Shown: piece by piece, positions 3,127 through 17,540 of the stretch
Layout of the letters: each line of letters opens with the position of its first letter
Position numbering within the stretch: the first letter of the stretch is position 1
Origin: a virus
IMG/VR virus record: IMGVR_UViG_3300025122_000138
Span: 1 to 25,408 of that record
Strand: one strand, 5' to 3'
DNA: 25,408 bases
Notes under the pieces: model-generated
Told to the model about the DNA's origin: nothing
Database searches by the model: none
What the model saw: the letters and a program-made list of their open reading frames with translations, nothing else
Program-made: the position numbers and the translations under genes

Positions 3127-3333
3127 TTATTTTGATAAAAGTTCAAGTTCGTCTGCGGTAAGCCACCAATCGCCGCTAGAATTAAATTGAATATGAAATT
3201 GTTCTGTGCTGAAAGATGTGTTAGAATCAATTATGATTCCCATCTCTCCACATTCTATTTTCCCAATGATGGCACCAGCTTTGCCACCTATTTCAATATC
3301 AAACTTAGCTTTAACGAGACTGCCTATCTTCAT
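3127..3333 (-). CDS. Small KOW/SH3-like protein (MKIGSLV), copy 7
   Basis: A 68-aa protein starting MKIGSLVKAKFD, then AGAIIGKIECGEMGIIID, FHIQFN and WWLTADELELL. The longer frame starting 14 codons upstream was rejected: the internal ATG aligns with the MK-x-G start of the family. It overlaps the end of the 63-aa membrane protein by 23 nt rather than 14, so this junction differs slightly from the others. E-L-E-L-L-S-K at the end is the usual closing strand. Role unknown. Confidence 0.72.
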   Translation of the reverse strand: MKIGSLVKAKFDIEIGGKAGAIIGKIECGEMGIIIDSNTSFSTEQFHIQFNSSGDWWLTADELELLSK

Positions 3334-3502
3334 TTTCTTCGTTAAGCCAGCCAAAAACTTTAACAGCCATTTCATACAGTTGAAATTGTTTCGGTGTTGG
3401 AAGGAAGGGTAGAAATCCGCGTAAAATAAAAAACAGACCGGCTACAATTAACATGCCGCCGCCCAAAAAACTAAACCTCAAATTTCTTAGGTACTTCCTC
3501 AT
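3311..3502 (-). CDS. Small single-pass membrane protein
   Basis: A 63-aa protein with a basic N-terminus (MRKYLRNLRF) and one hydrophobic segment at about residues 11-33 (FLGGGMLIVAGLFFILRGFLPFL), predicting an inner-membrane protein with the basic end inside by the positive-inside rule. The C-terminal 30 residues are hydrophilic and end EENEDRQSR, the final codons being shared with the next KOW gene. It starts 3 nt after the stop of the LeuA-like gene. No family recognised; holin-like size is noted, but nothing supports that role. Confidence 0.6.
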   Translation of the reverse strand: MRKYLRNLRFSFLGGGMLIVAGLFFILRGFLPFLPTPKQFQLYEMAVKVFGWLNEENEDRQSR

Positions 3503-3505
3503 ACT

Positions 3506-4126
3506 CTAAGTAGTCTTTAGTTTTGCAATCGTTTCTTCGTATGATACGATGCGTACTAGTTCAGTCATTCGTATCGTGTCTTCTTGAACTAAATCTGTTC
3601 TTCCTCTTTCTGTTGCGTCTTTTATGCTTTTATACAACTCTATCACTGCCAGTTCCACATTTATTAGATATTCTATTGCACTTTTGATTGCGGAGATGGC
3701 CGCGACAACCAATGAACGCGCAGTCGCTTTGAAGTATAATAATTTTTTGTTTGAGTTTTCAATCGCTAATTTGATTTCCACTGGTGCATCTGTCTTATTC
3801 CACCTATTGCTATTTTTAAAATCAACTTTCACTGAAAAATCATCTAAACTAAATTTTTTTAATGAACAAAAATCACCGGAAAGTCTCTCGATTATCGCAC
3901 TAAAAAGAGCATCAACAAAGCCGTCGCCCTCGCCCTTAATTTTAGCAGACAATTTCCTGCTTGCCGGTACTCTTAGGGAACAAGAAATATATGATTTCTC
4001 GTCTTTGTCGCTCTCCTTCAAAATAAAATTAGAAATAAACAATTTTAACTGGGATTTTCCCAGGACTTCGTTTATAATTATTCCACATCTTTCTTGTACT
4101 ACTTCTTCAGGAAAAGTTGGGGGCAT
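3506..4126 (-). CDS. Stand-alone LeuA allosteric (dimerisation) domain-like protein
   Basis: A 206-aa protein whose residues of about 15-170 resemble the C-terminal regulatory domain of 2-isopropylmalate and citramalate synthases. Shared features are an opening strand series, then G-E-G-D-G-F-V-D-A-L-F-S-A-I, then LKKFSLDDFSVKV, TDAPVEIKLAIE, and a closing FKATARSLVVAAISAIKSA-IEYLIN helix, matching the family's GxGPVDA, DY-V, TDA-V-V-L and S-DII-AS-AYL-N landmarks. The TIM-barrel catalytic part and its metal ligands are absent. In the enzymes this domain binds leucine or isoleucine. A helical tail of about 40 residues follows. It starts 3 nt past the PAP2 gene. Whether it binds an amino acid or pairs with a host enzyme is inference. 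Confidence 0.68.
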   Translation of the reverse strand: MPPTFPEEVVQERCGIIINEVLGKSQLKLFISNFILKESDKDEKSYISCSLRVPASRKLSAKIKGEGDGFVDALFSAIIERLSGDFCSLKKFSLDDFSVKVDFKNSNRWNKTDAPVEIKLAIENSNKKLLYFKATARSLVVAAISAIKSAIEYLINVELAVIELYKSIKDATERGRTDLVQEDTIRMTELVRIVSYEETIAKLKTT

Positions 4127-4129
4127 ATA

Positions 4130-4753
4130 TTAATTAGCTGTTTGGAGTTGTTTAAAGATGATATTTTTAGATAAAAAATAACACATACTAGCCAATAGTA
4201 TACCAGATAAAACGTCCACAATAAAGTGTTGTTTCAAAGCCAATGTAGAAAGTGCAATTAAAGCTGCCCAAACAAAATAAACCGTTTTAATCCATGGCCT
4301 ATTCTTTGCGTATTGCGTCAAGCCCACAAAAAATGCCAAGAGCCATGAAAATGTTACGTGACCCGATGGAAAAGTATTATTTGCTCCATCAATCATCCTC
4401 GTCAGTTCAACTAGCCAGCCAGAAATAGATGAGGGATCAACAAAAGATTCACGAGGATAAAAAGAAGGGAAGAGAACATAGAATATGCTCAATGTAACCG
4501 AAGCAATCATATAAGCTGTGAACGCAGAAAAAAATACTTCTTTCCTGCTTACAAAACTAAACATTGTTACAAGAATCACAGGAATTAAAGTGTGATAAAC
4601 CCAAACAAACTCTGGAACGAACGGAATTACATGATCGAGACTTGTTAGAAAATTATATTCATTGACTGTGAAAAGTAATTGGATGCCGAAATAGGTTACG
4701 AAATTAAAAATAATAAATAGGGTGAGATATTTTGCTTTCGTCCCATTCGACAC
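4130..4753 (-). CDS. PAP2-superfamily membrane phosphatase
   Basis: A 207-aa multi-pass membrane protein with about six hydrophobic segments. The signature is F-P-S-G-H-V-T-F-S at 128-136 (active-site His132) and L-A-L-K-Q-H-F-I-V-D-V-L-S-G at 171-184 (His176, Asp180). These correspond to motifs C2 and C3 of the PAP2 / inositolphosphotransferase-type family, which act on lipid phosphates or pyrophosphates at the membrane. The classic KxxxxxxRP motif C1 is not obvious. The start is GTG at 4753 with GGAG 10 nt upstream; no ATG is available nearby. A host lipid or undecaprenyl-phosphate substrate is plausible but not shown. It follows a 157-nt leader and precedes the LeuA-like gene. Confidence 0.82.
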   Translation of the reverse strand: MSNGTKAKYLTLFIIFNFVTYFGIQLLFTVNEYNFLTSLDHVIPFVPEFVWVYHTLIPVILVTMFSFVSRKEVFFSAFTAYMIASVTLSIFYVLFPSFYPRESFVDPSSISGWLVELTRMIDGANNTFPSGHVTFSWLLAFFVGLTQYAKNRPWIKTVYFVWAALIALSTLALKQHFIVDVLSGILLASMCYFLSKNIIFKQLQTAN

Positions 4754-4910: not shown

Positions 4911-5186
4911 TTATTTAAAAACTGGGTTTTTGCTGGTTTCAAACAGCCTTCGCATGAATGATTTTTTTAGACGAAGCAGGCGTTCAAACCTTGCTTTTTC
5001 TCTTGTGTTGATATAAAGTGCGGAAGGTGTCCTAATTTGGCCGTCGATTAGTTGCTCGCTGAAGTCATAAAATTTAGATTTTACATTGCGATTGGGAGGC
5101 TTGGCGTTAGTCGATGAGCACATCAATGTTACAAGAGTAAATACGAATATTATTAAAATTGATGTGGCGCGGGTGCGCTTTTTCAT
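4911..5186 (-). CDS. Small secreted or membrane-anchored phage protein
   Basis: A 91-aa protein with a typical signal peptide: basic MKKRTRA, a hydrophobic stretch of about residues 9-23 and TNAKP, suggesting cleavage after Ala29. Cys23 lies at the end of the hydrophobic core, but the preceding TLM is not a good lipobox. The mature part contains YDFSEQLIDGQIRTPSALYINTREK-type residues followed by a basic helix with RFERLLRLKKSF, a pattern that I recall from unannotated phage and myxobacterial proteins. The ATG is 9 nt after AAGGA. Periplasmic location is inferred; function unknown. It lies between lipid-active membrane genes. Confidence 0.7.
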   Translation of the reverse strand: MKKRTRATSILIIFVFTLVTLMCSSTNAKPPNRNVKSKFYDFSEQLIDGQIRTPSALYINTREKARFERLLRLKKSFMRRLFETSKNPVFK

Positions 5187-5225: not shown

Positions 5226-5489
5226 TCATGTTTCCTCAAGTACTTCTTCGTGAAGTGTTTCTTCGCTGTGCATATGATGATAAACTTCGCCAATATCGTC
5301 TGCTAGGACTGCCAGTTTTGATTGTACCCATTCTGGTAAATCTCTTTTGTCTGCTACCAAATCCATTAGCATGTTCGAGTATTCATTTATCTTTAATAGC
5401 TGTTTTTCTGCCATGTCTCCTTCGGAGTCGTGGCTTTCTGCTAAGACCTCTCTTACATATTGCTCAAGAATTGTTTTCGTCAGTTTCAT
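5226..5489 (-). CDS. Conserved small helical phage protein
   Basis: An 87-aa acidic, all-helical protein. The first 20 residues (MKLTKTILEQYVREVLAES) look like the short N-terminal MKLTK-x-L-x-x-x-I/V-x-E segment found on many marine-phage proteins. The remainder has KQLLKINEYSNMLMDLVADK, LPEWVQSKLAVLADDIGEVYHHM, a series that I recall from marine phage genomes without assigned function. It overlaps the hydroxylase gene's end by 26 nt, so the two are translationally linked. The N-terminal tag may be a virion-targeting or propeptide-like sequence, but that is inference. Confidence 0.75.
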   Translation of the reverse strand: MKLTKTILEQYVREVLAESHDSEGDMAEKQLLKINEYSNMLMDLVADKRDLPEWVQSKLAVLADDIGEVYHHMHSEETLHEEVLEET

Positions 5490-5967
5490 CGTCGCTGTCC
5501 TTTTTTAAATATTTAACTCTCGTACCTATAAGTAGGTCCCAAAAGCTGTTTGTTACTCCCCAATTTGCATCTTGATTGGTTCCCATGTGATGCTCATAGT
5601 GCCAGGGTACATTTTTTTTTGCCCACTCAACATCTTGATGCGCTTTCCAATGAACCCAAAGGTATCTAATTGCACAAGCAACTAATGTAATATAAAACAC
5701 CGGAAAGAATAAAATCAATGGAGAGTGAAGAAGAATTAATAAATTAATTCCCATGACTTCTTTCCTCAATGAAGAATGGAGTGGGCACTGGTCATAATGG
5801 GGGTCTAGCCCTTCATTTTTTCTGCATGCTTTGTGGTGCTCGTGCCAATGAAATGCCCAATAAGATTCTTTATTCTTGCCTAAGCCGTGCAAAATATATT
5901 TATGAATTAACCATTCTAAAAGAGAAGCGTATAAAATTCCAAGCACTGCGGCAAGCACATACCACAT
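5464..5967 (-). CDS. Fatty acid hydroxylase / sterol desaturase superfamily protein
   Basis: A 167-aa membrane protein with hydrophobic segments at about 3-20 and 73-106. It carries the di-iron histidine clusters: H22-x4-H27; H40, H42, H44, H45; H107 and H110; and H123-x2-H126-H127 near the end, followed by the family-like NWGVTNSFWDLLIGTR. The superfamily uses O2 and a di-iron centre to hydroxylate or desaturate membrane lipids, sterols or carotenoids. It is compact for the family but has every histidine block. The start ATG overlaps the preceding stop by 1 nt (TAATG) with AGGA upstream. With the PAP2 gene nearby, phage remodelling of host lipids is an attractive inference; the substrate is unknown. 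Confidence 0.87.
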   Translation of the reverse strand: MWYVLAAVLGILYASLLEWLIHKYILHGLGKNKESYWAFHWHEHHKACRKNEGLDPHYDQCPLHSSLRKEVMGINLLILLHSPLILFFPVFYITLVACAIRYLWVHWKAHQDVEWAKKNVPWHYEHHMGTNQDANWGVTNSFWDLLIGTRVKYLKKDSDDETDENNS

Positions 5968-7571
5968 TATTTCCTAGCCCTCATTATTCGTACTTTAATC
6001 TTCTTTGATTCTCGAATGGGCATGTTGCGTACATCTTCTGCATCTTTTTCTGCTTGTGTTTCCAAGGGCAATTCCATTTGTTTTTTCTTTTCTTCGTCGG
6101 AAGGCCAATAAAATCTTTCTTTTTCTAAGTCTGGGGCTGGGATTTTTCTTAATCCTTTTAACTTCGAAATCACCACATCATATATTTCTTGCCAATTGCT
6201 GTCATATTCTAAAACTCTAGCGGCAAATTGTTCAAATCCATCTACGCCGCTTTCATCATAATCGGGAGTAAAATCAAGTCTCACTTCTTCATATGAAGAT
6301 TCTATATCGTCAACGTAAACATAATTATCATCGGCTGCTTCTCGAACAATTTCTTCCAACATATCATCATTATCTTCATGTTCATCAATCCACTCTAAAT
6401 CAGAGAAATCAAAAGACATTCCACCATTATAGTAATATTTGCCCTCTTCGTATTCGTCAAAATAGAGATAAGTATGCTCCGCGCTTTCTTCAAATTTGTC
6501 CTGAATCTTCTGATAATCTGCTTCGGTTGGACCAGCAGGATTTTCATAGGCGTGATCGCGCATTTGCTCCATAATGTGAATTTGAACGGCTTCTGCTTGT
6601 TCGCGTATTTTTTCATTAGCCCGTTCAAACCGTGTCACCCACTCATAATCGTGTTTTGATTTTTCGTCTTCGGGAGTGGGAGGCAAATCAATTTCAAGTC
6701 TTTCAAGCGCCTGATTATATAATGCTACATCTTCTTTGGTTACTTCATCAGCAAACCTATTGCTATCATACCACAAATACGCCATCCAAGCTCCCTCTGC
6801 GGTTGCTTGATTTAGAAGATTCTGTACAAACGCTTCTGTTATTTCTCCGCTGTCCAATTCAGTATCTTCTGCATCAAAAACACTTTCAAGATCGTATTCG
6901 TTGTCGAGGACAAATGCTAATTTTTTATATTTATTTGTAGGATCGACATGCTTTAGGAATACAAAATAGAACATCTTGCCTTCGCTAGTGTAGCTATCGA
7001 AATAATTGTGACTTTGTTTTGCAGAGATGCACCACTGTGTGCTTCTACCAAAAAAACAAGAAGCCTGAGTGCTCATTGGCCTGACAATAAAATAATCTTC
7101 GGTGTCATCAATGACTTCTGCTTCGCTGAGAGCGGCTCTCTTCTCTTCTGCTCTTTTTGTGGCTTGTGTGTCTTCTTCTTCTACTTTATTAACGGCGTTG
7201 CGAAGTGATTCATAATCTTTGTAAGAATTGATGTCCTTTGAAAAGCCAAATTTTGGCATACGCTGGTTCCATTTGTGGAATTTTTCAATCTTATCAGTGA
7301 GTTCGGGCACCCATGACGATTCTATTTGTGCGACGTCTAAGCCAGTTCCTGGTGGAGTGTGTTGGGCGCGATATTGACGGGCTGCTTCAGTTTGTTTTGC
7401 GGCCCAAGCAAGATATTTTTGATTACCAGAAGGATCTCGCCTTACAAGATAATCAATAATTTTCGGAATGCGAGGATATTTCTTTTTGACGTCTTCAATC
7501 CGGCCTTCAATTAAAAGCTGCTCTTCTGAAAGAAGTGAGTACTTTCGCCAACCTTCGAATAATTGTTGCAT
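5967..7571 (-). CDS. Large acidic phage protein with G-x2-T-x-WC motif
   Basis: A 534-aa strongly acidic protein rich in Asp, Glu and Tyr. The N-terminus (LFEGWRKYSLLSEEQLLIEG) resembles short tags on other marine-phage proteins. Residues of about 160-215 contain FIVRPMSTQASCFFGRST-QWC with C172 and C181, then YFDSY, KMFYFVF, KLAFVLD. I recall this 'GxxTxWC...F..Y...YF' module from many unannotated large phage proteins. The second half is a long acidic helical region (about 270-500) and the C-terminus is basic (KKIKVRIMRARK). No enzyme motif is secure. A virion or internal-head role is possible given the tag and location. The ATG has no good Shine-Dalgarno. Confidence 0.78.
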   Translation of the reverse strand: MQQLFEGWRKYSLLSEEQLLIEGRIEDVKKKYPRIPKIIDYLVRRDPSGNQKYLAWAAKQTEAARQYRAQHTPPGTGLDVAQIESSWVPELTDKIEKFHKWNQRMPKFGFSKDINSYKDYESLRNAVNKVEEEDTQATKRAEEKRAALSEAEVIDDTEDYFIVRPMSTQASCFFGRSTQWCISAKQSHNYFDSYTSEGKMFYFVFLKHVDPTNKYKKLAFVLDNEYDLESVFDAEDTELDSGEITEAFVQNLLNQATAEGAWMAYLWYDSNRFADEVTKEDVALYNQALERLEIDLPPTPEDEKSKHDYEWVTRFERANEKIREQAEAVQIHIMEQMRDHAYENPAGPTEADYQKIQDKFEESAEHTYLYFDEYEEGKYYYNGGMSFDFSDLEWIDEHEDNDDMLEEIVREAADDNYVYVDDIESSYEEVRLDFTPDYDESGVDGFEQFAARVLEYDSNWQEIYDVVISKLKGLRKIPAPDLEKERFYWPSDEEKKKQMELPLETQAEKDAEDVRNMPIRESKKIKVRIMRARK

Positions 7572-7583
7572 GTTATAAATAGT

Positions 7584-8890: not shown

Positions 8891-9127
8891 TCATGTTTTA
8901 ATATTCTTTTTCTCCACAAACCATTCTTCGCCCTGATACCAGACCTTCACACATTCATTTCCTGCATTTTCTTCAATCAATAACAAATTTAAAGGTTTAG
9001 TTAGCCTATTAAATTTAATTGGTGTTGGGCCAATATAAGTTTCTTTAGGGTCACGGTCTTTTACTTCTTTATTGTACTGAAGCAATCTTGTTTCTGCTGG
9101 TACATAAACTAAATCACCCTTCTTCAT
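8891..9127 (-). CDS. Small KOW/SH3-like protein (MKKGDLV), copy 8
   Basis: A 78-aa protein starting MKKGDLVYVPAETRL and ending with CVKVWYQGEEWFVEKKNIK, the V-K-V-W-Y-x-G-E-x-W-F-V pattern of the final barrel strands. The middle has an insertion relative to the shorter copies (DRDPKETYIGPTPIKFNRL). It is located 5.5 kb from the main island but has the same 14-nt entry overlap (ATGAAGAAGGGTGA) with its upstream gene, here ending NEEG. That shared junction is the best evidence that it belongs to the same cassette-like family. Confidence 0.78.
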   Translation of the reverse strand: MKKGDLVYVPAETRLLQYNKEVKDRDPKETYIGPTPIKFNRLTKPLNLLLIEENAGNECVKVWYQGEEWFVEKKNIKT

Positions 9128-9822: not shown

Positions 9823-11394
9823 TCACGCTTCAATAACAGCCGAGTTTGTCGTAATTAGTGTAGATGCAACTGAAGCTGCATTTTGCAAAGCGCATCGCGT
9901 TACTTTGGCTGGATCTATAATTCCAGCCTCCAGCATATCAATAACATTGCCATTTGTGAAATCCACCCCTAAACCATCGTCTTCGCCCTCTATTTTCGAT
10001 AAAATTAAATCGGGTGATTCACCTGCATTGATTGCCATTTGTCTCACAGGCTCTTTGACTGCCTCTAAGATGATTTTAACACCCAGTTCTTGACTTTCGT
10101 TTTCAGTTTCAACTTGCAAATCATTGCAAGCCCTTATTAGTGCAATTCCACCTCCTGGTACAATTCCTTCTTGTTGCGCTGACTTTACAGCCTCCAAAGC
10201 ATCTTCGATCCTGTGTCTTTTTTCTATCATTTCAATTTCTGTGGCTGCCCCAACTTTAATAATCGCGATGCCGCTAGCCAATCTCGTAATTCGTTCTTGG
10301 ATCTTTGCACATTCATGAAGATTTTCCGTTTGACCAACTTCGGTTTTTAATGTTTCTATTTTCTTTGCCACCTCTTTTAAATCTCCGGTGCCTCCAACAA
10401 TTGTAGTAAAATTCTTTGAACATTCAAAAGTCTTCGCTGAACCAAAGTGATTAAGCGTGACATCTTTTAATCTCAGATTATTTTCCCTACCAATTAATGT
10501 TGCCCCAATTGAAACAGCCAAGTCCTTTAAAATGTTTCTCCTTTCTTCTCCGTAGCGAGGAGCTTTCACGGCGGCAATTTTTAAAGTGCCCCTAACGGCA
10601 TTCATTATGAGGGCCGCAAGTGCCTGCCCCTCAATGTTTTCAGCAACAATTATACATGGCCGAGCTTCCCTTGCTACCAATTCCAATACTGGCATCATTT
10701 CCTCTACTGCTTCTATTCTTTCGTCTGTAACTAGAAGTAGTGGATTCTCATATTTAACAACGCCTCGTTTTTCATCCGTAATGAACGCACTGGCTAAGTA
10801 TCCAGAATCAAAGCGAAAGCCTTCCACCACATCTAGGCTTGTCTCAAGAGAACGTGCCTCTTCAATTGTTATTGCACCGTCTTTGCCAGCTAAATCAACA
10901 GCAGTTGCAATTAATTTGCCAATCGTCGAATCGCCGTTTGCAGAAATGGTTGCAACGTGCGCTATGTCTTCTTCGGATGTAATTGGAGTAGAAACTTCTT
11001 TTAGATTATTAACAATGGCTTCTACGGTTTTGTCAATTCCTTTTTTAAGCTCTACGGGAGGTGCACCCGCAATTAAATATTTTTGAGCTTTATCTAAAAT
11101 TGCTCTCGCCAAAACTGTTGAAGTCGTTGTGCCATCTCCAGCTTCTGAATTTGTTTGGGCGGCGGCTTGTTTAATGATCTGGGCACCAACATTCTCGAAC
11201 GGATCTTCTAGTTCGATGAACTTTGCCACTGTAACCCCGTCCTTTGTAATGATTGGGTTGCCTTTTTCTTTGTGATGTAATATTACGTTTCGGCCGCGTG
11301 GCCCCAGCGTAGAAGCTACGTTATCAGCTAATACATTAACACCTTTTAAAATTTTTTGTTGAAGTTTTAGATTAGATTCATATTTTCGTGACAC
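9823..11394 (-). CDS. groEL: GroEL-type chaperonin
   Basis: A 523-aa group I chaperonin, co-linear with bacterial GroEL. Landmarks are G-P-R-G-R-N-V at 31-37, K-D-G-V-T-V-A-K at 51-58 with Asp52, [11 protein letters not shown] with Asp87, [11 protein letters not shown] at 276-286, and R-I-E-D-A-L with Asp398 followed by [10 protein letters not shown]. Asp52, Asp87 and Asp398 fall at the E. coli positions, so ATPase activity is expected. The apical hydrophobic patch is retained (MMPVLEL at 233-239). The C-terminus stops at NSAVIEA without a GGM tail. The start is GTG with GAGG 5 nt upstream. No GroES is encoded in the window, so either the host co-chaperonin is used or none is needed, as reported for some large-phage chaperonins. 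Neighbouring probable virion genes suggest a role in folding them. Confidence 0.97.
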
Positions 11395-11408: not shown

Positions 11409-12938
11409 TTATTCAGTTTTTTCGACTGCTTTTTTGGTGTGATAGTTTAATCTTCCAGCGTCTTTGACAGCACTCATGCCGTGTTGATTTCTGCTCATTT
11501 CTCCCTCATCTACATCAAGGAAAAACTTATTAATATTAACAGAGAGGCTGCTCAAAGAATTATAAATAGCAATCAAATTATTACTTAAATCTTTTGCATA
11601 TTGATTTGCAATTTGTACAAGTTTTGGTGGATATAAATCTAGCACACCGATTTCTCTAGATTGTTTTCTAAAATAGCCAGGTGCAATGTGAAATTGCTTT
11701 CTTGATATGTAGCCGGGACTATTCACAATCTCTTGCCAGAATTCTGGGCCTCTTTCCATTGTTTTTAGCTGACTGTATAGATCTTCTTCATTGCCATAAA
11801 GTGCTTTCGAAGAACTAGTTCTTTTACCCGTTGTTGTATATTCTTTTTCTCCAATTTTCGCATTCACTTTATATGTTTCACCAGCTACTAGCAAATCTTC
11901 TGGGTTTAGGCGAACTTCTCCGCTTTCTGTGACTTTTGAGAGAGCAACTTCATCAGCAATGGCCGCTGGATTAATTTTCTGTGTTATAATTTCTTCTGCT
12001 TCAATTTCATCATATTGCATAAATCGGCCTTTTGGTCTGGTAGGTGGCCTAGGAATAACTTCGCCATTAATAATTTTAGCTCTCACTACTGGGCCAGCGG
12101 TAATTTTTACATTGGCAGCGGGAGTGTCGTCAACGCCAAACGTAAATTCCACTGGTGCAATCTCGTGTTGCATTTTAAATTCTTCGTGACCGATATAATC
12201 TAAAAAGTTTTCTGGAGTGATGTCAAATTCATTGAAGGCTAGCGTTCCAGCGCCCATTTTTGTTACAACCAAATAAATGATCTTTTGGCTGCGCCCTTCT
12301 GCAAAGAAATCAACTAAGTTTTTAAAACTTCCCTTCAAATCTGTTCCTGGGCTAAGCACTTTTAAACTATAAGGCACAATTGCTTCTTCAACGTCTGCTT
12401 CGTCTCCGGCCTGAATTGCTCTGCGAATCATTAAATTCACATCTTCAATCGGAAGGGAGCCAGCCGCTGCGCCAACTTGTTCTGGGTCTTGAACCTGTTC
12501 GCCCAAAAACAAACCAGCCAAAAATGCTTCAAAAAGAAAACCAGCCGTCGAAGCATTGTATTCTTCAATAATGTTTGAAAATATCTGTAAAAAGATTAAG
12601 TTTGAAAGGATTTTGGGAACTGCTAAGCCTGGTTGATAATTCATGAAGTCATTAACGCTTGCTAATTTTGCTTCGACAGTACCGCCGACAACATTTTTCA
12701 TTAGGGTTTCTAGGATTGCACGATCTTCAGTGTTTTTAACGCCCCAATTCTCCGTAATCTTGATTGCTGGGAATCTAATCACTCTTTCTTCGGAAGTTTC
12801 ATCTGCTTCTATTGGCACATCGGCTTCAGTCATAAGGGTGCCAAACCGATTAACTTCTTCTTCAATTATTTTTAAAAACCCATCTAAACCAAGAGATTTA
12901 AATGCGCGGTAGTTTTCATTTAGTTTATTAATGTCCAT
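11409..12938 (-). CDS. Large conserved phage protein, probably virion-associated
   Basis: A 509-aa acidic protein without a recognised enzymatic motif. The N-terminus MDINKLNENYRAFKSLGL is a short helical segment like the tags on neighbouring proteins. Residues of about 125-145 include an S-T-A-G-F-L-F-E-A-F-L-A-G-L-F-L-G segment that I recall from marine phage proteins of unknown function. Later parts alternate strands and charged loops, and the last 80 residues are helical (VQIANQYAKDLSNNLIAIYN). It is placed directly upstream of groEL and downstream of the endolysin. A structural or assembly role, possibly as chaperonin client, is an inference from context and size. Confidence 0.78.
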   Translation of the reverse strand: MDINKLNENYRAFKSLGLDGFLKIIEEEVNRFGTLMTEADVPIEADETSEERVIRFPAIKITENWGVKNTEDRAILETLMKNVVGGTVEAKLASVNDFMNYQPGLAVPKILSNLIFLQIFSNIIEEYNASTAGFLFEAFLAGLFLGEQVQDPEQVGAAAGSLPIEDVNLMIRRAIQAGDEADVEEAIVPYSLKVLSPGTDLKGSFKNLVDFFAEGRSQKIIYLVVTKMGAGTLAFNEFDITPENFLDYIGHEEFKMQHEIAPVEFTFGVDDTPAANVKITAGPVVRAKIINGEVIPRPPTRPKGRFMQYDEIEAEEIITQKINPAAIADEVALSKVTESGEVRLNPEDLLVAGETYKVNAKIGEKEYTTTGKRTSSSKALYGNEEDLYSQLKTMERGPEFWQEIVNSPGYISRKQFHIAPGYFRKQSREIGVLDLYPPKLVQIANQYAKDLSNNLIAIYNSLSSLSVNINKFFLDVDEGEMSRNQHGMSAVKDAGRLNYHTKKAVEKTE

Positions 12939-12945
12939 ATTATAA

Positions 12946-13842
12946 TTAGTCTCTAAGATCGCTCAACATCTCATCCCAATCTAAATTTGCTGCGTCCCAC
13001 TTGTTTCTAGACACGTGAAAGTGATTTACAATGCCGCTGAATTTTCCATCTTTAGTTTCTTTATGCTCTGCTAATAAAACGTTCCCACCATTATCCATTG
13101 GCATTTGTATTGGAATATCATAGTGAGAACAAAGAGTTTTAACTAAAGCCTTATATGCTTCAAGTTGTATATCATAAAAGCCCAAACATTCTTTTATATA
13201 ACTGTTGTGTACTTTTACCTTTTCCAAAAGTGGGCGTGGGCCGAAGTTCTTTCTTCTGTACCATTTTTGATATTTTGTATAAACCGCATTGGAAATATCA
13301 ATTCCAATAGAGGCTTTATTTACTTTGCGATTTCCAGCATGCCAGCCTTCATGTTGAGTATCGACCATCTGATAAATTGTACCATCATTGTCGATGACAA
13401 AGTGGCTGGAAATTCCTTTCTTTTCTAACACTCTCGCGCAAGATTTAGCAGAAAGGCATACATCAAAATGGGTAACAATCATTTTAACATTTCGTTTGTT
13501 TTTCTTATATTCTCTGAATCCTTTTGGCAAGGCCAAGCTATCCTCGTCACGAAGATTAACAACCTTGTCCCAATCAATCGGCACCAATTCGCCTTCGCAG
13601 ATTAAATGATTGCCTTCGAGATTTTCAAATTCTTTCTCAAGCCCTGCTTCATGTTCTGTATTTGCTCTTCGAAAAGTCATTGGTCCGCATAATCCATCTG
13701 CCGAAAGGCCATGTTCTTTTTGAAATTTGCGTATACTTGTAATTAGCTTTTCATCAAATTCTTTCGCACCAAACCATGAAGGCTCCCATCCTAATTTGGA
13801 AGCCGAGGCCTTGTTATAAAATATCTTATCTTTAACTGCCAT
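12946..13842 (-). CDS. Endolysin: N-acetylmuramoyl-L-alanine amidase with peptidoglycan-binding domain
   Basis: A 298-aa endolysin. Residues of about 13-60 form a PG_binding_1-like domain (ITSIRKFQKEHGLSADGLCG-PMTF). The catalytic part from about 118 is of the Amidase_2/PGRP type: I-V-T-H-F-D with zinc ligand His125, S-S-H-F-V-I-D-N-D-G-T-I-Y-Q, WHAGNRKVNKASIGIDI at 167-183, and N-H-F-H-V-S-R-N-K-W-D with His274 or His276 and Asp283 as the remaining ligands. It would cut the amide between muramic acid and L-alanine. No signal peptide is visible, so a holin is presumably required. AGGA lies 8 nt before the ATG, and an extended -10 promoter is just upstream. Confidence 0.93.
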   Translation of the reverse strand: MAVKDKIFYNKASASKLGWEPSWFGAKEFDEKLITSIRKFQKEHGLSADGLCGPMTFRRANTEHEAGLEKEFENLEGNHLICEGELVPIDWDKVVNLRDEDSLALPKGFREYKKNKRNVKMIVTHFDVCLSAKSCARVLEKKGISSHFVIDNDGTIYQMVDTQHEGWHAGNRKVNKASIGIDISNAVYTKYQKWYRRKNFGPRPLLEKVKVHNSYIKECLGFYDIQLEAYKALVKTLCSHYDIPIQMPMDNGGNVLLAEHKETKDGKFSGIVNHFHVSRNKWDAANLDWDEMLSDLRD

Positions 13843-16337: not shown

Positions 16338-17356
16338 TAAGTCTTTCCTAAAATGTGAGTTCGGCTTTCGCCCAAGCCCGCGTTTGTTTGTTTGATAAAC
16401 TTGGCTTTTGTTTGTAGTTCTAAAATTGTTCTCGCGCCAGAATAAGAAAATCCAGAAACAATTCCATTTCTTAAATCTTCTAAAATGGTCTTAACGCTTC
16501 CCTTATATGGAATGAACGTAGAAATGCCCTCATTGGACGAATACCGACCACGCCATTTAATTTGAGCATCTTTGCTAGCCATACCGCGATATTCCTTTTT
16601 AACGCCGCCGAGTGTAACAACTTTTTCTCCTGGGGATTCATCTGTTCCTGCTAAAAGCGAGCCAAGCATTACAAAATCTGCTCCCGCGGCAATTGCCTTA
16701 ACAATGTCGCCAGAAGAGCGAATGCCGCCATCGGCAATAATCTTTGCGGATCTGTCTGACATGGCACATTCAAATATAGTTTGCAATCCTGGCATGCCGT
16801 GTCCAGTTTGAATTCTTGTACTACAGATTGAGCCGCCGCCAATATTACAACGAATACTATCTGCGCCCCAATCTGCTAAATCATTAAAGCCTTCTAAAGT
16901 AGCAACATTGCCAGCCATAATGTGTACGCTGTCGTGGAGCAAATCTTTTATAGATTTGATCGCATGCTCTACCAATTTATGATGACCGTGTGCGACATCA
17001 ATACATAAAACATTTGTTCCGTTGCGTGTCAAATTTGCAGCTCGTTCTAAAAAATCATCTGTAACACCTACTGCTGCGCCAACGTTTGGGTTATATTCCC
17101 AAGCTTTACGGACTATTGCACATTGTTTTTCAACTGTATTGTAACGATGAACGATCCCTAAGCCGCCCACTTCTATCATTGAGGTGGTCATGTTGAGTTC
17201 CGTAACGGTATCCATTGGCGCTGAAATTACTGGAAAATCTAAGTGGATATTTTCATCCAAATCATTTCCGATCTTTACTTCTTTTCGACTCTCAATGTCT
17301 GAATATTGTGGTATCAATAATACATCATCGTATGTTAAGGCTTCTTTAAATCTCAC
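16337..17356 (-). CDS. IMP dehydrogenase / GMP reductase family enzyme, no CBS domains
   Basis: A 339-aa (beta/alpha)8 enzyme. It has [11 protein letters not shown] at 7-17, APMDTVTE at 46-53, GAAVGV at 93-98, D-V-A-H-G-H at 120-125, catalytic loop G-G-G-S-I-C-S-T-R with Cys178, A-D-G-G-I-R at 208-213, and the flap N-E-G-x-S-T-F-I-P-Y-K-G around 275-286. IMPDH makes XMP from IMP; GMPR makes IMP from GMP. The usual CBS pair near residue 95 is absent. The flap favours GMPR slightly and the rest favours IMPDH, so I leave it open. The usual V-G-I-G-P-G-S is changed to C-N-I-G-G-G-S. The start is GTG with GGGAGG 6 nt upstream. Likely role: purine pool control. Confidence 0.92.
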
Positions 17357-17540
17357 TAATGACCTCCCAATTCTCTTTTATTAGTTTAAGTGGCGCTGTT
17401 GATGCACTCGAATCTCCTGAAAATACAACCTTCGCATATTCTTCACTTCGGTATTCAAGGTGTTGCTCGGACATAAAAATATCCAATATTATGCCCGTGG
17501 TTCCGGCATAATTATGTTTTATCAAATCACCGACTTTCAT
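17346..17540 (-). CDS. Small KOW/SH3-like protein (MKVGDLI), copy 9
   Basis: A 64-aa protein starting MKVGDLIKHNYAGTTGIILDIF, with YAKVVFSGD and a closing WEVISEI strand. G-T-T-G-I-I-L-D-I is close to the matching part of copies 1 and 6. It enters through the identical 14-nt overlap (ATGAAAGTCGGTGA) at the end of the DUF3310 gene, about 15 kb from the main island, and its own end overlaps the GTG of the IMPDH-like gene by 11 nt. Function unknown. Confidence 0.8.
   Translation of the reverse strand: MKVGDLIKHNYAGTTGIILDIFMSEQHLEYRSEEYAKVVFSGDSSASTAPLKLIKENWEVISEI

Follow-up and report, generated by a model that had tools for sequence, protein, structure and literature searches.

The LeuA_dimer domain is best known as a part of the enzymes of the leucine and isoleucine pathways. 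The leucine site of M. tuberculosis LeuA includes L535, A536, V551, Y554, A558, A565 and A567, and the yeast enzyme loses its feedback when G531, G533 or A536 is changed (PMC2704214). The carboxylate of the LeuA ligand is held between the N-termini of two helices; the regulatory domains touch each other and the leucine pockets are located at the dimer interface (PMC11057210).

The DNA analyzed here (25,408 nucleotides, called the window) is a 25.4-kb IMG/VR virus record of a marine phage. One of its proteins shares with the LeuA allosteric domain (PF08502; 1sr9/3fig, and 3f6g/3f6h for the citramalate synthase of Leptospira, LiCMS): (i) the profile, with a score above the cut-off; (ii) the predicted fold (Z 11.4); (iii) the GxGxVDA motif and, as placed by sequence alignment, most of the leucine-site positions. 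It differs from the PF08502 enzymes by having neither catalytic barrel nor linker and by a helical extension of 50 residues with its own invariant residues. Its identity to three CimA-type domains and to E. coli LeuA is 17-21%. The family to which it belongs is a real and conserved variant of a known domain, apparently undescribed: no paper on a phage or stand-alone LeuA_dimer protein was found in the open-access literature searched, and searches of PHROGs, INPHARED, PADLOC and BFVD did not reveal the stand-alone family with its tail. This coverage is not exhaustive, and automatic names based on the domain may exist in RefSeq.

Identification of a stand-alone LeuA_dimer protein

3506..4126, minus strand: gene of the stand-alone LeuA_dimer protein, 206 aa (ATG 4124-4126, stop 3506-3508; PF08502 match)
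3665..4078, minus strand: segment matching LeuA_dimer, residues 17-154 (Pfam match, AlphaFold2 model, fold searches)

When the 206-aa ORF was compared with all of Pfam by hmmscan, PF08502 (LeuA_dimer) was the sole family obtained, with a score of 27.9 bits (cut-off 24.9) and an E value of 2.4e-6; residues 17-154 align to positions 10-130 of the 131 positions of the profile. No HMGL-like TIM barrel (PF00682) is present within the ORF, nor was one found when 20 records of related phages (fragments, 22-191 kb in length, the window record not included) were searched. The initial annotation had described a stand-alone LeuA-type allosteric domain in a phage, with no catalytic barrel, to be checked with PF08502; the significant profile match, the fold match to 3f6g (see below) and the presence of PF08502 alone in the ORF bear out this description.

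In single-sequence scans, 20 of 23 diverse phage relatives match PF08502 at E <= 0.1 (best value 3.5e-9). The comparison by hhalign of the phage-family profile with genuine LeuA/CimA regulatory domains gives a probability of 98.8 and an E value of 5.6e-17. In the reverse direction, the family profile searched on genomes recovers true LeuA regulatory domains, in frames of 520-766 aa. The citramalate synthase model TIGR00977 is also matched by 9 of 15 members (best E 1.1e-4), by the regulatory part in the member shown; however, the members are far under its 450-bit cut-off, have no barrel and are not this enzyme.

Sequence searches of the PDB, with a single sequence or a profile, did not reach LeuA. 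PHROGs gave only weak and scattered matches, of one member each, and PADLOC no defence family. Scanning the window for Rfam families and for tRNAs gave nothing. The other phage-type genes of the window comprise groEL, an endolysin, a dUTPase and an IMP dehydrogenase, together with a long ORF which by its appearance is DNA polymerase III alpha-like.

Predicted fold

The AlphaFold2 model of the window protein, obtained with a 12-row alignment, has a pLDDT of 87.5 and a pTM of 0.84. The order of its elements is helix, beta-beta-beta-alpha, short helix, beta-beta-beta-alpha and two further helices. Foldseek ranks M. tuberculosis LeuA and the LiCMS regulatory domain with bound isoleucine first, and these solved folds stand well above all others; a comparison of the predicted structure with the LeuA C-terminal domain had been proposed in the initial annotation. 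With VIA-align, 3f6g is matched with a Z of 11.4 and an rmsd of 2.6 over 119 residues, the first unrelated row being at 5.8. The model of a bacterial member (pLDDT 87.7) gives a Z of 11.2 with 3f6g, independently of the window protein. The predicted fold of the window protein is that of the two-times beta-beta-beta-alpha regulatory domain of citramalate/isopropylmalate synthases. A fold search of BFVD gave no convincing relative. A likeness to ribosome-hibernation and double-stranded-RNA-binding proteins was also considered and was rejected, being at background level only (Z 5 to 6).

Putative ligand site

3908..3928, minus strand: G67-x-G69-x-V71-D72-A73 motif, on the N-terminal end of the first domain helix (alignment of 23 phage members)

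This motif is the equivalent of G531-x-G533-P-L535-A536 of M. tuberculosis LeuA, which is a part of the leucine site. The residues of this site were mapped onto the family with E. coli LeuA as the intermediate in a sequence alignment. At all the named residues, the letters of the M. tuberculosis segment used in the mapping match those of PMC2704214. Both glycines (G531/G67 and G533/G69) are invariant in the 23 phage members. A536 corresponds to D72 and Y554 to F97, each in 22 of 23 members; L535 corresponds to V71 (21 of the 23 have V or I) and V551 to L94 (F or L in 22 of 23). A558 falls on V101, a variable position, A565 on A114 and A567 on V116. The second domain helix has at its N-terminus a nearly invariant residue, S138, and the glycines and helix-cap residues of the site rank among the best-conserved positions.

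Judged from these residues, the acid-binding geometry looks kept. The presence of Asp at A536 and of Phe at Y554 means nevertheless that the specificity may differ or be lost. The role of a leucine- or isoleucine-responsive regulator, also put forward in the initial annotation, is possible in view of the well-conserved glycines and helix caps; the same residue conservation could be structural.

C-terminal extension

3509..3658, minus strand: C-terminal helical extension, residues 157-206 (alignments, AlphaFold2 model)

An extension of about 50 residues follows the LeuA fold in every phage and bacterial member. In the phage set N156, E158, R174, R176 and Y196 are invariant and D178 nearly so, and the joint alignment of phage and bacterial sequences keeps these residues (N-x-E ... 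R-x-R-x-D ... Y). Its conservation equals or exceeds that of the domain (mean information of 2.51 vs. 2.16 bits). By alignment it has no counterpart in E. coli LeuA or in the CimA-type regulatory domains.

The free-standing LeuA_dimer proteins, about 200 aa in length, make up a family of their own, with a phage branch and a bacterial, chiefly myxococcotal one. The reading that we favour, tentatively, since it is somewhat short of an even chance, is that of a homodimeric sensor or adaptor of small carboxylates with its own output surface. The stand-alone protein would form a homodimer, as the LeuA domain does, and the N-termini of its two domain helices (GxGxVDA and SxS) would still enclose a site for small molecules. 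A carboxylate-bearing metabolite, e.g., a branched-chain amino or keto acid, might be bound there, and its binding would alter how the C-terminal helices (NxE, RxRxD, Y) are presented; these helices would act on a partner other than LeuA.

It is also conceivable, though rather unlikely, that the ligand has been lost and that the protein is a protein- or RNA-binding scaffold, which works through the surface of its C-terminal helices and uses the LeuA fold only as a dimerisation platform. The extension is indeed the most strongly conserved part outside the GxGxxDA motif, and the beta-beta-beta-alpha unit is common to double-stranded-RNA-binding and ribosome-hibernation proteins. However, the matches to such RNA-binding-like folds are those at background level given above, and the invariance of the leucine-site glycines and helix caps goes beyond the need of a plain scaffold.

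Phage family and gene neighbourhood

9823..11394, minus strand: phage groEL, syntenic anchor about 5.7 kb upstream of the LeuA_dimer gene (Pfam/PHROGs, synteny)
4130..4753, minus strand: PAP2-superfamily membrane phosphatase gene, directly upstream with a 3-base gap (Pfam)

A single-sequence pattern scan of viral contigs gave no relatives; neither did tblastn against the INPHARED phages, nor megablast when the whole window was compared with these phages. Relatives were reached only by groEL synteny and by the family profile. The homologues in the loci fetched with groEL are found a few kb downstream of this gene and are 30-49% identical to the window protein. A profile scan gave 27 IMG/VR loci encoding relatives, 27-49% identical, many of them near-identical copies from different assemblies. 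Twenty-three representative phage sequences were aligned; for two of these (L011 and L059) the source is the groEL loci instead of the profile scan.

The dN/dS ratio is about 0.09 within a close clade and 0.17-0.19 between the window and two relatives, for which synonymous change approaches saturation; in two other pairs saturation was reached. These low values (about 0.09-0.19) show that the phage gene is under purifying selection and is maintained as a protein-coding gene.

In most phage loci the gene lies downstream of groEL, at a distance of a few kb. This position would suit a phage assembly or late-gene factor, e.g., a chaperonin substrate or cofactor or a minor virion protein, and the start motif CTAnTTA is found also at a family of 509-aa phage genes (11409-12938 in the window). 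Such a function is nevertheless improbable: the bacterial branch is chromosomal, with no phage genes around in the loci read, and the gene is often absent from groEL-bearing phages, 26 of 40 such records (which are fragments) having no family match.

The LeuA_dimer gene is part of a conserved gene block. In 11 of 23 loci its direct upstream neighbour is the PAP2-type phosphatase gene; the more divergent loci have other phage genes at this place, often from the cluster of the 534-aa gene of the window. The phosphatase gene (4130-4753, minus strand) is itself close to a fatty acid hydroxylase-family gene (5464-5967, minus strand; Pfam), and this proximity suggests phage lipid modification.

Three other observations concern the neighbouring genes. 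(i) A 91-aa protein with a signal-like N-terminus (4911-5186, minus strand) is kept in 12 of 23 loci, close to the LeuA-domain gene on one side or the other, with the conserved motif KSKFYDFsEqlIdGqIR.P..Ly...R....F.RLLrLKKSF. (ii) Two related phage contigs have, besides groEL, a DnaK-like ORF immediately downstream of the LeuA-domain gene (9234-11111 in L117 and 9156-11108 in L119). (iii) Small proteins with a start like MKxGDLV are encoded on the minus strand at 801-1016, 1667-1852, 2207-2416, 3127-3375, 8891-9127 and 17346-17540; apparently these short SH3/KOW-like proteins belong to one family, several copies of which are dispersed in these phages.

Bacterial branch

The scan of GTDB species genomes gave seven MAG loci. 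By profile search, full-length stand-alone homologues were then counted in 47 of 282 Myxococcota genomes, i.e., 50 matches minus three frames resembling LeuA itself, in a sample which includes five seed genomes. One patescibacterial genome was found in addition to the seed (E 1e-17). Two Magasanikbacteria (Patescibacteria) carry a homologue, of the myxococcotal type (L128 and L131). The homologues of Myxococcota and Magasanikbacteria (L126-L132 and L141-L170) are about 30% identical to the window protein and resemble it in length, in the succession of domain and C-terminal extension and in predicted fold; they differ in being chromosomal and in branching apart from 22 of the 23 phage rows.

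In the tree, for which LeuA was the reference, three groups are separated: LeuA, the phage members (22 of 23 rows) and the bacterial members. Support for many deep forks is only moderate, and the branches of L120 and L174 are long. L120, labelled viral, is placed inside the bacterial branch. The Magasanikbacteria are nested among Myxococcota, which suggests transfer between phyla.

In the two Magasanikbacteria loci the gene lies between rmuC-like and comM-like genes, and these surroundings give the copies a chromosomal look; a trigger-factor-like gene is near and, in one locus, a DnaA-like gene (all names by sequence appearance). The bacterial loci read have bacterial neighbourhoods and no phage genes. 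The neighbours vary (type II secretion F-like, 2-hydroxyacid dehydrogenase and methylmalonyl-CoA mutase-like, again by appearance); they were considered as an operon clue, which was dropped, for they look lineage-specific and suggest no pathway.

Relation to LeuA and CimA

HMGL and LeuA_dimer are joined in one frame in 5 of 45 Myxococcota bearers of the stand-alone gene vs. 9 of 20 non-bearers (Fisher p 0.007, a value that takes no account of shared ancestry; genes may also be missing from draft genomes). The other 40 bearers have no LeuA or CimA with a LeuA_dimer domain; among them are three that are assembled as one large chromosome (5.0, 5.8 and 8.0 Mb) bearing the gene. One Magasanikbacteria genome has no HMGL match, and the other only a contig-end fragment below the cut-off. 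The Bradymonabacteria are placed in the Myxococcota. These predatory bacteria are reported to have no complete synthesis of leucine and isoleucine (PMC7460792).

A split LeuA, i.e., barrel and regulatory domain encoded by separate genes, was also considered. It is not seen in five bearers (G073, G079, G146, G151 and G210), because their six short HMGL proteins are 4-hydroxy-2-oxovalerate aldolases or HMG-CoA lyases according to curated models, and not LeuA-type.

The initial annotation had proposed that the protein could hetero-oligomerise with host LeuA and change feedback control (taken here as the feedback inhibition of LeuA or CimA); true homology to the LeuA dimerisation domain (hhalign) and the contacts between LeuA regulatory domains, with leucine pockets at their interface (PMC11057210), would agree with it, but a family that occurs mostly in genomes without a domain-bearing LeuA or CimA, whose remaining HMGL proteins in five bearers are other enzymes, which is found in a Magasanikbacteria genome without HMGL and in phage records without the barrel (20 searched), and whose conserved extension is foreign to LeuA, makes this very improbable. 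The family is not a LeuA accessory, the bearers counted being Myxococcota, which may not be the hosts of the phages. As it is found for the most part where the enzyme is lacking, it probably has another function.

Significance of the family

Returning to the carboxylate sensor, the phage copy would replace, or compete with, a host protein of the same stand-alone family and would thereby couple some phage or host process to metabolite supply. A wider and more speculative picture, which we consider doubtful, is that of an as yet undescribed family of free-standing metabolite switches, each consisting of the LeuA regulatory domain and a helical effector tail. Myxococcotal bacteria without LeuA would use them, and large marine phages would carry them to sense the status of the host in branched-chain amino acids (or related acids) and to adjust infection or host physiology.

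The occurrence of LeuA_dimer alone, in phages and in genomes devoid of the enzyme, implies that an amino-acid-sensing fold has been reused as an independent module, as is likewise the case for ACT domains. With this family, a candidate phage metabolite sensor becomes open to testing, and a set of unannotated proteins of Myxococcota and marine phages acquires a meaning.

Start-proximal motif

4127..4137, minus strand: CTAATTA start-proximal motif, replacing the Shine-Dalgarno sequence (common to 10 of 22 homologues and the 509-aa phage gene)

In the form CTAnTTA, this motif is found at four genes of the window, all on the minus strand (3500-3513, 4124-4137, 7569-7582 and 12936-12949), while 0.44 occurrences of the whole pattern are expected. 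In the related loci it is present at 38 of 656 predicted ORF starts (about 4 expected), with a peak 4-5 bases ahead of the start codon, and it tends to replace the Shine-Dalgarno sequence. Its recurrence concerns the LeuA-domain gene and the 509-aa gene family. It is possibly a promoter for leaderless transcripts or a non-canonical translation signal.
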